In this document: positions 48,058 through 55,098 of the stretch, one piece after another
Layout of the letters: the number at the start of each line of letters is the position of its first letter
Position numbering within the stretch: position 1 is the stretch's first letter
Source of the DNA: Bacteroidota bacterium
GTDB lineage: Bacteria > Bacteroidota > Bacteroidia > B-17B0 > Aurantibacillaceae
Direction of reading: 5' to 3'
NCBI GenBank assembly: GCA_020162035.1
Contig: JAIUNM010000005.1
Coordinates: 62,001-126,000 of the forward strand
DNA: 64,000 nt
Notes under the pieces: generated by a model
Told to the model about the DNA's origin: nothing
What the model saw: the letters and a program-made list of their open reading frames with translations, nothing else
Databases searched by the model: none
Made by a program: the position numbers and the translations under genes

Positions 48058-48086
48058 TTGGTAACAAATAATATTTATTACATTTG
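48058..48086 (+). promoter_or_regulatory. Promoter of the YidD-like locus
   Basis: TTG at 48058-48060 and TACATTTG at 48079-48086 are 18 nt apart, matching the Bacteroidota promoter pattern. The box ends 4 nt before GTG at 48091, so this GTG is the likely start and upstream in-frame GTG/TTG codons (48055, 48058) fall inside the promoter. Confidence 0.6.
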
Positions 48087-48090
48087 TGTA

Positions 48091-48474
48091 GTGATAAAAA
48101 AAATCATATTTACTTTATTCTGCTTTAGTTTCTATTGTTTTTTTGCTCAAAATTCAAGCTTACTAACTTTAAAGAGGGAAAAATTACAGAACGAGTTAAC
48201 TACAATGAAAACTGATGCTGTTGTAAAAAAGAAAAGAGGAATAGGTAATGCTTTGTTAAATGTATATCAAAAACATATATCAGTGCTTATCTCGGCGGAA
48301 TGCTTGTATTCTCTTTCTTGCTCTCGTTATTCGCGTGAGGCGCTTAATAAGTACGGATTTTTTCCAGGAATATTATTAAGTGCAGATAGAATTACTCGTT
48401 GTTCTTTTTTTTGTAGCAAAGACATTCCAGATAGTAAATTTAACGATGATGGTCTCGTGCAAGATAATCCATAG
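48091..48474 (+). CDS. YidD-like protein with a signal peptide
   Basis: 127 residues from GTG 48091. The N-terminus IKKIIFTLFCFSFYCFFAQ is a signal peptide. The core from residue 56 matches YidD: LNVYQKHISVLISAECLYSLSCSRYSREALNKYGFF, then RITRC. The conserved Cys, Ser and Tyr of the CxxxPTCSxY motif are kept (Cys71, Cys77), and a further Cys pair at 104 and 108 is present. Classic YidD is cytosolic-side and assists YidC; an exported form should act in the periplasm. The next gene begins inside its 3' end. Confidence 0.8.
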   Translation: MIKKIIFTLFCFSFYCFFAQNSSLLTLKREKLQNELTTMKTDAVVKKKRGIGNALLNVYQKHISVLISAECLYSLSCSRYSREALNKYGFFPGILLSADRITRCSFFCSKDIPDSKFNDDGLVQDNP

Positions 48475-49813
48475 GTTGATATTTTTTATATCTTTTTTTT
48501 ATTATTCAAGCATCGCTAATTGCAAATTAGAATTTAATGATTCACTTTTAATAAATATTATAAATAAGAGCATTAATTATTTGCATGTTACTCAAATTAA
48601 AGACAATAATCAACCAAATACTTTTGTTGGCGAATGGCCATCATATATATATAATTGTGCCAACATACCTTTTCTAGGTAAAAAAGGGAAATCTGCCTAT
48701 GATTCAAATGTTTTTAATACTTTGTTTATTCATAATGCAATGGCTGAGTTGTATCTTACATTTAATAAAAATTCGCAAATACTTGAACTGCTTAGTTTGG
48801 CGCAAAAAAATTTCAAATATTTTAAAAACGAATCTTCATTTAATTTTTGGCCTGAATTGCTTCGTCCCAGTCACTTAAAATGCAAACATAAAAACTGCAA
48901 ACAACGTCGCCCTGTTAATTTTAATTATCATTATGGCTTTATTAACAATTATGCTAATATATATGATGATGCAGATGACACTTCTGCAGGATATTTGGCT
49001 TATTATTTAAGTAATAAAGTGAAAGACAGTTCGGGAACAAACCAGCTTGATTATTTCAATACCGATTCATACTTTAAAAATTTTGTGTTATATCGCGATA
49101 CTGGTATTAGAAAAACAAATTGGTATAATAAAAAAAACGGATTTAAGTATAGAACAGGAGCATTTTTTACATGGTTTGGCCCTGACAGAAAACCATCTCA
49201 TTTTTTTACATGGTTTTTTCCATATCATCATAAACAAAATATATTATATGGTAGAAACGAAGTAGATTGTGTAGTTAATGCGAACATTTTAAAAACCCTT
49301 TATACATTGGGAGATACAACAATTTCAGGTGTAAAAGAATCAAAAGAGTTTTTACGGAAAGTAATCGCAAAAAACAAATGCCAAACTTGTGGCGTTTATT
49401 ATCCTACAGAGTTTAGTTTTCATTATGCTTTAGCAAAAGCTATTAGTGCTGGTTTAACCGGATTTAATGACCTGAAGGAAGTTTTAATTAGCGAAATATT
49501 AAAACAAAAAAACCAACAAGGGTTTTGGGAATCTCAAATTGAAGGAAATGATGTTCAGTGTACTTTGTATGCATTAAATGCAATTATGATGTTATCATCT
49601 GATAAAAAAATATTAAATGAAATTGAACCTGGTATAAATTTTTTACTTGAAAAAAGAATTAACGACCAAACTCTTACACATTGGAATGGCGGCGTGTTTT
49701 TTTCAGGAGGTAGCGCAATTAGATATGAGCATGTGTGGATATCTGATGCTTATACAACTTGCTTAGCAATAGAAACCTTAACTAACTATTTAAATTTTAA
49801 AAAACAATTATGA
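48446..49813 (+). CDS. Exported alpha/alpha-toroid protein with a DxDDT motif (terpene cyclase/prenyltransferase-like)
   Basis: 455 residues if started at the ATG pair 48446/48449, which gives a basic n-region (CKIIHR) and a signal-like core (LIFFISFFYYSSIANC); it then overlaps the YidD-like gene by 29 nt. A TTG at 48476 is an alternative. Residues 174-180 read DDADDTS, equal to the DxDDT(A/S) motif that protonates substrate in squalene-hopene and class II diterpene cyclases. A QW-like motif (QKNQQGFWE, about 354-362) and helical repeats such as VQCTLYALNAIMMLS and HVWISDAYTTCLAIETL support a toroid fold. Length is about two thirds of a hopene cyclase and export is unusual for one. Catalysis is unproven. 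Confidence 0.6.
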   Translation: MMVSCKIIHRLIFFISFFYYSSIANCKLEFNDSLLINIINKSINYLHVTQIKDNNQPNTFVGEWPSYIYNCANIPFLGKKGKSAYDSNVFNTLFIHNAMAELYLTFNKNSQILELLSLAQKNFKYFKNESSFNFWPELLRPSHLKCKHKNCKQRRPVNFNYHYGFINNYANIYDDADDTSAGYLAYYLSNKVKDSSGTNQLDYFNTDSYFKNFVLYRDTGIRKTNWYNKKNGFKYRTGAFFTWFGPDRKPSHFFTWFFPYHHKQNILYGRNEVDCVVNANILKTLYTLGDTTISGVKESKEFLRKVIAKNKCQTCGVYYPTEFSFHYALAKAISAGLTGFNDLKEVLISEILKQKNQQGFWESQIEGNDVQCTLYALNAIMMLSSDKKILNEIEPGINFLLEKRINDQTLTHWNGGVFFSGGSAIRYEHVWISDAYTTCLAIETLTNYLNFKKQL

Positions 49814-50655
49814 GGTTAATATTGTTATTCCTATTTACCACATCACTCTATGGTCAATACTTTGACACAATTTCGATAGAAAAAAAAATAACTTTTGTTA
49901 ATTATCTTAAACAAAACAAACAACATGAAGATGCGCTTTATATTTTAAACCATTTCAATTCTAGAGAGCAAATAGACTCTTTAATACTAATGGAGGTAAA
50001 ATTACTTTTAGAGTTGCATAGAGAAAAACTTGCCGACTCACTTTTAAAATCAAGTTTAAATTTATTTTCAGATTCATCAAAGTTAAACTGTAGTTACACA
50101 CTTTTACAAAATCATGTTAATATTTTAATATCAAAGTTAGATGATTTAAAAAAACCTAATTACACAACCAATCTAATTCATTATGAGACATGGCGAATAC
50201 AACAATTGGCTACTGCTATTTTAAAAAACGATTTTGGTGGTTTTGAAGAAATATTTAACTCAGGTAAATGCACCAATCCAAACACTTCCATGATTGAGTT
50301 TTCTTTGTATGTTCAAAAAACGGAAATGTTTCGAAGGAGGAAAAAAAGTGGATTTTTAGCTGGTTTATTTTCAACTATTATTCCAGGATCAGGAAAAATT
50401 TATGCTGGTAAACCCCACGAAGCATTAACATCCTTTGTACCTGTTGTGTTTAACTTAGCACAAGCTGGAGAAGGGTACTATTACAAAAAATTTGAAAGCC
50501 CACATTTATATGTGTTTGGCTCCATTGGCACCGTTTTTTACGCATCTAATATTTATGGAAGTTTTAAAGCGGCAAAAAGAAAAAACGCAGAGTTTAATAA
50601 TAAGGTTAAAAATAACATTGAGTATGAAATCACAAAACTTATCAGTTATTATTAA
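49810..50655 (+). CDS. Exported helical-repeat/membrane protein A of a tandem pair
   Basis: 281 residues overlapping the toroid gene by 4 nt. Signal peptide MRLILLFLFTTSLYGQ, a TPR-like helical half, then a membrane half with FSTIIPGSGKIYAGKPHEALTSFVPVVF and GSIGTVFYASNIYGSFKAAKR. The GSGKxYAGK hairpin resembles DUF5683/TM2-like PGxGqxYxGk segments. The next gene has the same plan, so the two look like diverged paralogues. Likely an inner-membrane protein with its TPR part in the periplasm. Confidence 0.7.
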   Translation: MRLILLFLFTTSLYGQYFDTISIEKKITFVNYLKQNKQHEDALYILNHFNSREQIDSLILMEVKLLLELHREKLADSLLKSSLNLFSDSSKLNCSYTLLQNHVNILISKLDDLKKPNYTTNLIHYETWRIQQLATAILKNDFGGFEEIFNSGKCTNPNTSMIEFSLYVQKTEMFRRRKKSGFLAGLFSTIIPGSGKIYAGKPHEALTSFVPVVFNLAQAGEGYYYKKFESPHLYVFGSIGTVFYASNIYGSFKAAKRKNAEFNNKVKNNIEYEITKLISYY

Positions 50656-51439
50656 AATACAGCTGTTGTTTTTAATAATACAGACTTGTGGTTACTCACA
50701 AAGTCAAAAAATGGAACGACTTATTCTACAATATAATTATACTCAAGCTACTTCTGATTCAGTAAAAGAGATTATCAATTTTCAAATTATAGACAAGTAT
50801 TTAAATGAAGGAGATTATGATAAAGCAATTAGCGTAATTACTAAAATAAATGATAGTGAAAAAAACAAAGATTTAAAATTATTGCTTTCAGGAAAAGCCG
50901 AGTTTTTAATTGATAATTATCAACAAAGCCTCAATTATTTGAATGTTGTAGATGAAAAAAAACTTAATAGCTTTTATTTTAAGGAATTGCAATTATTTAA
51001 AATCCTTAACTATAATCATTTAATGTATTTAGATTCGACTTATTTTAAACTTACATCACTATATGTAGGTAAAGGGAAAGACACTACGGGTTTTTATGCC
51101 GAAATGAATAAATTTTCTAATTTAAAATTATATAATTTACACAAGGCGAAAAGAAGGTCTGTATTATTTCCTGGTGCTGGACTTTGGTATGTAGGAGAAA
51201 AAAAAAGGGCATTTACTAGTGCACTAATTAGCTTTGGTTTTGTGGGTTATACTGCTTATAGTATCTACACAAAATATTATATTACTGCATTATTAACTGG
51301 AACATCGCAGTTTTTACGTTTTTTCAATGGCGGAAAACGTGCTGCGTTAAAAATAGGGGTACAAAAGAATAAAAAAGCTTATATTAATTATATTTTGCCA
51401 TTAAATGAATTTATTGAATGTAAAATTTTGGAATTATAA
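50624..51439 (+). CDS. Exported helical-repeat/membrane protein B of a tandem pair
   Basis: 271 residues from ATG 50624, which begins 32 nt before the stop of protein A; an ATG further upstream (50492) would overlap 164 nt and spoil the signal peptide (IKIQLLFLIIQTCGYSQ), so it is rejected. The helical half (EGDYDKAISVITKIND, KNKDLKLLLSGKAEFLIDNY) is followed by VLFPGAGLWYVGEKKRAFTSALISF and a late NGGKRAALKI segment. The PGxGxxYxG(k) hairpin and the basic tail align with protein A. Last gene of the overlapping four-gene set. Confidence 0.7.
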   Translation: MKSQNLSVIIKIQLLFLIIQTCGYSQSQKMERLILQYNYTQATSDSVKEIINFQIIDKYLNEGDYDKAISVITKINDSEKNKDLKLLLSGKAEFLIDNYQQSLNYLNVVDEKKLNSFYFKELQLFKILNYNHLMYLDSTYFKLTSLYVGKGKDTTGFYAEMNKFSNLKLYNLHKAKRRSVLFPGAGLWYVGEKKRAFTSALISFGFVGYTAYSIYTKYYITALLTGTSQFLRFFNGGKRAALKIGVQKNKKAYINYILPLNEFIECKILEL

Positions 51440-51477: not shown

Positions 51478-52107
51478 ATGATTAAAAAAACACATTTCTT
51501 AGCTTTTGTAACTGTTGTAATGCTATTGTCTTCTTGCGCAAAGAGAATTGCTGTTCCATACTCAACTGTAGAAAAAATAGTTAAAGTTGCTCCTGGCATG
51601 ACAACATCAGACGTGTCAAGTACTTTGGGTATCCCTCCTTATGATGTGTATCACATGGCTGGCGATGGAAGTACAGTTTTGATTTTTAATTATAAATTAA
51701 AACAAAGAAAAAACACTGGTTGTGGTGCTCTTGAAAAAATGGGTTTTGCCGATCCTTTTTATTCTAAAGAAGAGAATTTAGCAATTGGTAGTTCGTACTA
51801 TGTTGAAGAAAGCAAAGTTTATATTTTGTTTCAAAACGGAAAAGTTTCTTCTTTAGTTACTGACGCAGGACGCGAAGATTCAGAAGATCTTTTAATTCAA
51901 AACAATACCATTCAATTTATTTCAAAATCTAACCGTCATTCATTCAATTACTATAATTACGAAAAACTTGAGTTAGGTCAACAATTAATTAGATTAGATA
52001 GCAAAGGTAATATTGTTAAAAACAAAGGTGGTTTATTTGGTGGGAGTACAACTGGGCCAACTAAGAAGAAAAAAGGATGCATGTCTAAAGGTTGTTTCGG
52101 TAAATAA
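51478..52107 (+). CDS. BamE/SmpA-like lipoprotein with Cys-rich tail
   Basis: 209 residues. VVMLLSSCAKR is a clear lipobox (LSSC). The following VEKIVKVAPGMTTSDVSSTLGIPPYDVYHM resembles the Gm(t/s)xxxVxxxLGxP helix-turn of BamE/SmpA/OmlA folds. The end is KKKKGCMSKGCFGK, two Cys in a basic tail of unknown use. A further Cys (TGCGAL) lies mid-protein. It starts 38 nt after the paralogue pair, in the same orientation, with an imperfect TATTATTG box at 51451-51458. Confidence 0.72.
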   Translation: MIKKTHFLAFVTVVMLLSSCAKRIAVPYSTVEKIVKVAPGMTTSDVSSTLGIPPYDVYHMAGDGSTVLIFNYKLKQRKNTGCGALEKMGFADPFYSKEENLAIGSSYYVEESKVYILFQNGKVSSLVTDAGREDSEDLLIQNNTIQFISKSNRHSFNYYNYEKLELGQQLIRLDSKGNIVKNKGGLFGGSTTGPTKKKKGCMSKGCFGK

Positions 52108-53496: not shown

Positions 53497-55098
53497 ATGA
53501 GTAAATCTTTAAAGTACAAAATAATATTATTTTATTTAGCAATTTTTTATGCAAACTATGGCTTTACGCAAGAGTATTCTACACTTTTTATTTATAGTAA
53601 GAAAAAGTTTGTAGCATCAGGTATTAGCTATAAAATTTATGTGAATAAATTAGAAATTGGTCAAATTGCAACTGGTGGCAGACTTGAATATCGGTATTAT
53701 AAAACAGGTAGGCTAGACATAATGTGTGGAGTTTTTTCTGAATATGGAGGTAGTGATAAATACTCTGATAATATTACGATTGAAATAGAAAAGGGGAAAA
53801 CATATTATTTTAAAGGAGAAGGAAAAAATTTATACTTAGTAAGTAATGAAGTTGGTAAAGCTGAATTTGATAAGAATAGTGACTTTAAAGGCGGCATAGC
53901 CTTAAATGATGATAAACCATGGATTACTTCTTTAAGTAATCCGAAACAGCAAGAACCCGTTACAAATAATCCAATAGAAACTGAAAATAAAATTAGTGAA
54001 CCTGAAATTGTATTAACTACACCTAAAATAAGTGATGAAGAATTTAAAACGACCCAAACAAGTTTAAAAATAGCCGGTTATGTTGTTTCAAAATCTAATG
54101 TAAAAAGTGTAAAATTAAATGGAGAAGTACTACCATCAGATGATGTTGGAAATTTTTCGACAAATTTAAAATTGAAAGATGGATTGAATAGAGTTACAAT
54201 AGTAGTATTAAACGAAAAAAAACAAAACGTTGAAAAAACTTTTAATATAATTAAGGAGCTAAAAGAGGAGCCTGTAGCTGTAAATGATGACAATAAAACA
54301 GAAGAGTATGGCTATAGAGGTAGCGACCCCTTTAAAGGCACGAATGTTGCTAATGCAGCCAAAGAAATTAAAGCGGGTAAATATTATGCATTATTTATTG
54401 GCATAGACACATATTCTGGTACCTGGAAACCATTAAAAAACGCAGTTAACGATGCTAAAGCAATTGAAACGTTTGTAAAAGGAAACTACAAATTTGATGT
54501 TGTAAAAAATTTATATAACGCACAGGCAACACGTTCGAATATTATTGATCAGCTAGATTGGTTAGTGGAGAATGTTAAAGAAAATGACAATGTGATGATT
54601 TATTATTCTGGACACGGAGAATTTAAGAAAGAATTGAACAAAGGTTTTTGGGTTCCTGTAGATGCAAAAACTAATTCAACTTCAAATTATATTTCTAATT
54701 CTGATATTCAAACGTTTTTAGCGAGCATACCTTCAAAACATACATTGTTGGTTTCTGATGCATGTTTTAGTGGAGATATTTTTAGAGGTTCAACTACAAG
54801 TTTACCTTTTGAAAATTCTGAAAAATATTACACAAAAACATACGATCTTAAGTCACGCCAGGCAATATCTTCGGGTGGTTTAGAGCCTGTTATGGATGGT
54901 GGAAAAGAAGGGCATTCTATTTTTGCTTATTATTTATTACAAGCCCTAAAGAATAACAATGGCAAATACTTTGATGCGTCTCAACTTTATAGTAAAATTA
55001 AAATACCAGTTACAAATAATTCTGATCAATCGCCCGAATTTAATCCTATATCAAAAGCAGGAGATGAAGGAGGAAATTTTATTTTTATTAAAAAGTAA
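53497..55098 (+). CDS. Secreted caspase-like (C14) peptidase with N-terminal beta domains
   Basis: 533 residues: signal peptide (SLKYKIILFYLAIFYANYGFTQ), a beta domain, a low-complexity Pro/Glu linker, an Ig-like/Big-type domain (SLKIAGYVVSKSNVKSVKLNGEV ... LKDGLNRVTIVV), then a caspase p20-like domain from about residue 293 (YYALFIGIDTYSG). The dyad is His373 in MIYYSGHGE and Cys423 in LLVSDACFSGD. A metacaspase or gingipain-clan arginine/lysine preference cannot be read. It is extracytoplasmic. It ends 1 nt from the convergent sensor gene. Confidence 0.9.
   Translation: MSKSLKYKIILFYLAIFYANYGFTQEYSTLFIYSKKKFVASGISYKIYVNKLEIGQIATGGRLEYRYYKTGRLDIMCGVFSEYGGSDKYSDNITIEIEKGKTYYFKGEGKNLYLVSNEVGKAEFDKNSDFKGGIALNDDKPWITSLSNPKQQEPVTNNPIETENKISEPEIVLTTPKISDEEFKTTQTSLKIAGYVVSKSNVKSVKLNGEVLPSDDVGNFSTNLKLKDGLNRVTIVVLNEKKQNVEKTFNIIKELKEEPVAVNDDNKTEEYGYRGSDPFKGTNVANAAKEIKAGKYYALFIGIDTYSGTWKPLKNAVNDAKAIETFVKGNYKFDVVKNLYNAQATRSNIIDQLDWLVENVKENDNVMIYYSGHGEFKKELNKGFWVPVDAKTNSTSNYISNSDIQTFLASIPSKHTLLVSDACFSGDIFRGSTTSLPFENSEKYYTKTYDLKSRQAISSGGLEPVMDGGKEGHSIFAYYLLQALKNNNGKYFDASQLYSKIKIPVTNNSDQSPEFNPISKAGDEGGNFIFIKK

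Follow-up and report, generated by a model that had tools for sequence, protein, structure and literature searches.

A conserved gene unit of an exported YidD paralogue and two TPR-like paralogues in Bacteroidota, accompanied in one genome by a predicted terpene-cyclase-like toroid protein

We describe a three-gene unit, encoding an exported paralogue of YidD followed by two paralogous proteins that we call A and B, whose gene order recurs throughout the order of the genome studied and again in families of other classes. The evidence supports YidD-A-B as a real conserved envelope unit. In the window, by which we mean the whole stretch of 64,000 nucleotides analysed, a fourth gene lies between those for YidD and A, and its product is predicted to be a toroid protein resembling single-domain class II terpene cyclases. 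The sequence-only reading of this DNA had taken all four genes as one undescribed envelope system. That the system is undescribed is largely right and YidD, A and B are indeed conserved and overlapping, but the composition differs, since the toroid protein is the one that does not belong, and the LolA-like protein encoded upstream in many other copies is missing here.

Organisation of the locus

Four co-directional open reading frames were confirmed in the window (Table 1), and the overlaps claimed earlier at the successive YidD/toroid, toroid/A and A/B junctions are present, at 29, 4 and 32 nt. These overlaps are not due to chance, because the YidD-A-B order with overlapping junctions repeats in dozens of other genomes. 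The start of the YidD-like gene was taken as GTG 48091, the alternative in-frame starts being GTG 48055 and TTG 48058. The proposed promoter, TTG-N18-TAnnTTTG, is a Bacteroidota-type consensus and the sequence is present where it had been reported, where it would leave GTG 48091 essentially leaderless; however, the window contains 13 matches to it against approximately 19 expected by chance, and it was therefore rejected as strong evidence. Signal peptides, which had been ascribed to all four products, were called from N-terminal hydropathy only; the hydropathy is clear in YidD, the toroid protein and B, but the segment is short in A.

Table 1. Features of the locus, in window positions
Feature	Position	Strand	Basis
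YidD-like gene (exported paralogue, 127 aa)	48091..48474	+	PF01809, TIGR00278
Toroid gene (455 aa), single-domain class II terpene-cyclase-like	48446..49813	+	fold + profile match
DADDT (DxDDT) motif in toroid gene	48968..48982	+	profile alignment
Gene A (281 aa), TPR-like + TM2/DUF5683-like	49810..50655	+	
Gene B (271 aa), A paralogue	50624..51439	+	
Promoter-like TTG-N18-TAnnTTTG	48058..48086	+	weak

A small lipoprotein-like reading frame with a weak BamE match (51478-52107) lies 38 nt past B; none was seen beside the other YidD-A-B copies. Elsewhere in the window, an exported caspase-like protein (peptidase C14-type, by eye) is encoded at 53497-55098, downstream of an LRR protein.

Conservation of the YidD-A-B unit

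We searched 87 genomes of the window's order with PF01809 and read the exported-YidD loci. The canonical gene is present in nearly all of these genomes and a longer second one in many. Downstream of the exported YidD, A and then B follow on the same strand in 30 of the 31 other loci of this kind in the order, the YidD and A genes overlapping by 0-41 nt and the A and B genes by at least 23 nt when the longest reading frame is taken. One such copy (L049) belongs to the window genome itself and is without the toroid gene. The same order of genes was seen in loci from families of other classes.

Across the phylum, strong A matches (E at or below 2e-15) were obtained in 44 of 395 sampled genomes. 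All 44 carry at least two YidD genes, as compared to 11 of the remaining 351 (Fisher p 2e-48, a value which overstates independence since the genomes are related). YidD itself is widespread in bacteria, and 10 of 14 control genomes had it. Neither a description of YidD-A-B nor a paper linking YidD with TPR, TM2 or LolA genes was found in the open-licence literature; the earlier reading likewise knew of no described system with such a composition.

The exported YidD paralogue

The YidD-like protein passed both family profiles, PF01809 (58 bits, E 8e-16, curated cut-off 27) and TIGR00278 (58.4 versus a cut-off of 40, E 5e-16). It retains the core YQ..IS..C..SCS.Y..G..G..RitrC, whose residues align with the canonical copy of the same genome, and Y59, Q60, S64, C71, C77, S78, G93 and C104 are invariant across 21 exported members. 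Together with a hydrophobic, signal-peptide-like N-terminus as judged from hydropathy, this bears out the claim that the Cys/Ser/Tyr core of YidD is kept in a protein that is predicted to be exported. The NP motif ahead of the core is missing from the window copy, and the features by which canonical YidD is recognised (approximately 70-85 aa, no signal peptide, a GGxDPVP tail) do not describe it. The window genome encodes, besides this protein, a canonical YidD of 70 aa and the second exported YidD of L049. No solved structure of any YidD relative was found by sequence search, and to our knowledge little is known of YidD beyond its help to YidC.

Proteins A and B

Protein A begins with a hydrophobic segment, continues in predicted TPR-like hairpins and ends in a TM2/DUF5683-like hairpin (PGSGKIYAGK ... 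FYASNIYGS), the hydrophobicity of which is modest in the window copy. The layout of B is the same, with the hairpin motif PGAGLWYVGE, and a PGxG..Y.G hairpin is found near the C-terminus in each of the two families. The two had been described as tandem TPR/membrane paralogues, and profile-profile comparison confirms the paralogy (98.3%, E 2e-14); the direct match between the window's own A and B covers 21 residues only. In the model of A, helix hairpins span residues 23-150 and match TPR chains at Z ~11, a range common for helical repeats, while a Foldseek search with A returned nothing below E 0.01. Of 28 A members, 10 matched TM2 (PF05154) weakly (best E 0.0019) and short of the family cut-off, and DUF5683 (PF18935) also matched weakly among A members. 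The best match to either domain in the A and B families lies at E about 0.002-0.003, and none was obtained for the window's own A or B.

The toroid protein

The motif of the toroid protein is D175-A-D-D-T179, and a cyclase-type fold is predicted for it, as expected from the DxDDT assignment made earlier. Its AlphaFold model (pTM 0.78, with low-confidence insertions at residues 127-173 and 244-270) superposes on drimenol synthase (9mhs; VIA Z 29.5, rmsd 2.7, 291 residues) and on MstE (6sbg; VIA Z 28.3, rmsd 3.0, 310 residues), and Z is 27-29.5 over the class II cyclases drimenol synthase, MstE and SHC. Foldseek with the model likewise retrieved class II terpene cyclases (E 4.5e-7). The matched structures include both single-domain enzymes and the cyclase domains of larger proteins. 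Sugar epimerases and GH105 proteins have a toroid too and match at Z ~22, and therefore the fold alone is not decisive. A profile built from seven toroid relatives matches drimenol synthase at 9e-15, aligning the DxDDT with DLDTT of that enzyme and with DVDDT of SHC, and it places the middle aspartate, D177, at the residue mutated in AsDMS D333N. By predicted fold and motif this is a single-domain class II terpene-cyclase-like protein, probably with a signal peptide.

No Pfam family matched the protein, SQHop_cyclase included. A squalene-hopene cyclase proper, with two barrels and ~630 aa, was ruled out, as the protein has 455 aa, a single modelled barrel and no Pfam match. A lipoprotein reading (IANC) was set aside, the cysteine concerned being absent from the relatives. 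No recognisable terpene pathway genes adjoin the toroid gene in the window. The class II cyclases known to us are intracellular or work on the inner face of the membrane.

Distribution of the toroid gene

The toroid gene is absent from the operon in all 30 other copies of the order, the second copy of its own genome included, and from every YidD-A-B copy that was read outside the order. The protein was undetected in the remaining 86 genomes of the order. Its presence in the operon of this genome only, among the genomes sampled, contradicts the earlier assignment of the toroid as a member of the unit, which was to fall if conserved copies lacked it. In a tree of concatenated YidD, A and B the window copy stands alone on a very long branch whose position is not settled, while L049 groups with the ordinary copies. 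Since the window copy is such a solitary long branch, the toroid appears to have been gained on a branch without a sampled close relative.

Full-length relatives were found in Jiulongibacter sediminis, in a single genus of Cytophagales (three genomes) and in one further family. In Jiulongibacter, in two of the three genomes of the genus and in the further family they adjoin a propeller-like gene and not YidD. At every Cytophagales locus read (L005, L071, L113 and L112) the neighbour is an exported propeller-like protein of ~333 aa, so that toroid and propeller make up a second uncharacterised pair. No match to this partner was obtained in the window genome, an empty result which by itself is little evidence. 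YidD-A-B is nevertheless present in three of the four toroid lineages (the window, the Cytophagales genus and Jiulongibacter, where the two appear on one contig ~210 kb apart), against a base rate of strong A matches of 19 in 194 Cytophagales genomes (~10%). This co-occurrence hints at a functional link, on the strength of four lineages that are not fully independent.

It is quite possible that the toroid is a passive passenger, which landed at a point where a conserved operon tolerates an extra gene and is co-expressed with it while having an unrelated role of its own. Its occurrence in a single genome of the order fits such a status, as does the pairing of its Cytophagales relatives with a propeller-like gene not found in the window genome. 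The tight overlaps on either side of it (29 and 4 nt) speak against it, as do the recurrence of YidD-A-B in toroid lineages and the VTT/DedA gene that fills the same slot, between YidD and A, in L136 (3657-4256).

Short DxDDT toroids also occur in other settings, where the neighbouring genes were named by eye. At L075:1803-4603 one stands beside several NHLP-type leader peptide genes, which suggests that a cyclase-like protein belongs to a RiPP cluster, and at L072:3165-5608 and L074:3425-6654 they adjoin UbiA-like prenyltransferase and glycosyltransferase genes. These NHLP-, UbiA- and glycosyltransferase-associated toroids are more distant, single-barrel relatives.

Genes adjoining the unit in other genomes

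An exported protein of ~240 aa is encoded upstream of YidD in most Cytophagales loci, in L096 of another class, in the Jiulongibacter locus and in eight loci of the order. Among 13 aligned upstream proteins, 10 match LolA_like (PF17131) at E < 0.1 (best 2e-5), an assignment that is weak for single members. The corresponding profile found only QdtA and marginal matches in the PDB, none of them clear, and an early version of it found no relative in the window genome. A VTT/DedA gene lies immediately upstream of YidD in L037-L039 and L041; Pfam was run on L041 and L136 only and matched in both. DedA family members are lipid transporters, including of undecaprenyl phosphate. A lipid or otherwise hydrophobic cargo is suggested chiefly because the LolA-like gene recurs, with the toroid and VTT genes as supporting hints only; the lipid- or isoprenoid-handling role proposed earlier is plausible, on indirect grounds. 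In Ignavibacteria-like loci such as L079 (228-653), the end of B is overlapped by the gene for an ACT-domain protein of 141 aa.

An exported TM2-domain protein of ~140 aa often flanks the operon, in many Cytophagales loci and in loci of the order. It could be the substrate if the module were a helper for the membrane insertion of TM2-type hairpin proteins, a role which would be in keeping with the TM2-like ends of A and B, with the weak TM2 and DUF5683 matches among A members and with the assistance that canonical YidD gives to membrane insertion (Yu et al. 2011, as cited in PMC8082313). We regard this as rather unlikely, as no TM2 gene is adjacent in the window or in the Ignavibacteria-like loci, and the single TM2 protein of the window genome, which has a hydrophobic N-terminus, is encoded on another contig.

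Proposed function

We tentatively favour, without calling it probable, a periplasm-facing module for hydrophobic cargo, formed by YidD-A-B, which in this lineage took in an exported cyclase-like protein as well. The core is an ancient three-gene unit of an exported YidD paralogue with the paralogous A and B; the wider cassette also has a LolA-like protein of the periplasm and, in many loci, a small exported protein with a TM2 domain. A and B may reside in the inner membrane, their predicted TPR-like domains in the periplasm holding hydrophobic or membrane-protein cargo, possibly as parts of a complex with YidD. The exported YidD might act on the periplasmic face, by analogy with cytoplasmic YidD beside YidC, and the LolA-like protein, where present, could pass the cargo onward. 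In this lineage the toroid, inserted between YidD and A, may take an isoprenoid lipid as its ligand or as a substrate for cyclisation. The more specific version, in which the cargo of the machine is an isoprenoid-linked lipid and one of its working parts, on the periplasmic side, is an exported class II cyclase, is unlikely, and we know of no class II cyclase on that side of the membrane.

It is very unlikely that the copy in the window has diverged or decayed as a duplicate and lost its function: its very long branch, its missing NP motif and the ordinary second copy in the same genome would be in line with decay, but four open frames, the core motifs and the overlaps have all been preserved. 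Highly improbable is a single dedicated four-part system, as first put forward from the contiguous, overlapping genes of the window; the absence of the toroid from all the other YidD-A-B copies read speaks against it.

The long-term tie of an exported YidD to A and B, and often to a LolA-like protein, offers a genetic handle on the function of the YidD fold. It also leads one to expect, in Bacteroidota and the classes near them, an envelope pathway that has not yet been studied. A signal peptide on a cyclase-like protein, if true, would be unusual.

Comparison with known systems

Canonical YidD, encoded in the rnpA-yidD-yidC context, has the core YQ..I...C...SCS.Y...G..G...R..RC in common with the exported protein. 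The latter differs in its signal-peptide-like N-terminus, in ~55 additional residues, in lacking the GGxDPVP tail and in having A and B as neighbours instead of rnpA and yidC. LolA-like proteins (PF17131) match ten of the 13 proteins upstream of YidD in related loci, and no relative was found in the window genome. TM2 (PF05154) and DUF5683 (PF18935) proteins share a PGxGxxYxG hairpin with the C-termini of A and B, which have a TPR-like domain in addition. In comparison to the single-domain class II cyclases (MstE, the small SHC-like proteins of Cystobacter/Archangium and the cyclase domain of drimenol synthase), the toroid protein has only ~13-16% identity, a signal-peptide-like N-terminus and the long insertions of low confidence at 127-173 and 244-270, whereas the predicted fold is the same (Z 28-29.5) and the DxDDT is shared with its catalytic aspartate aligned.
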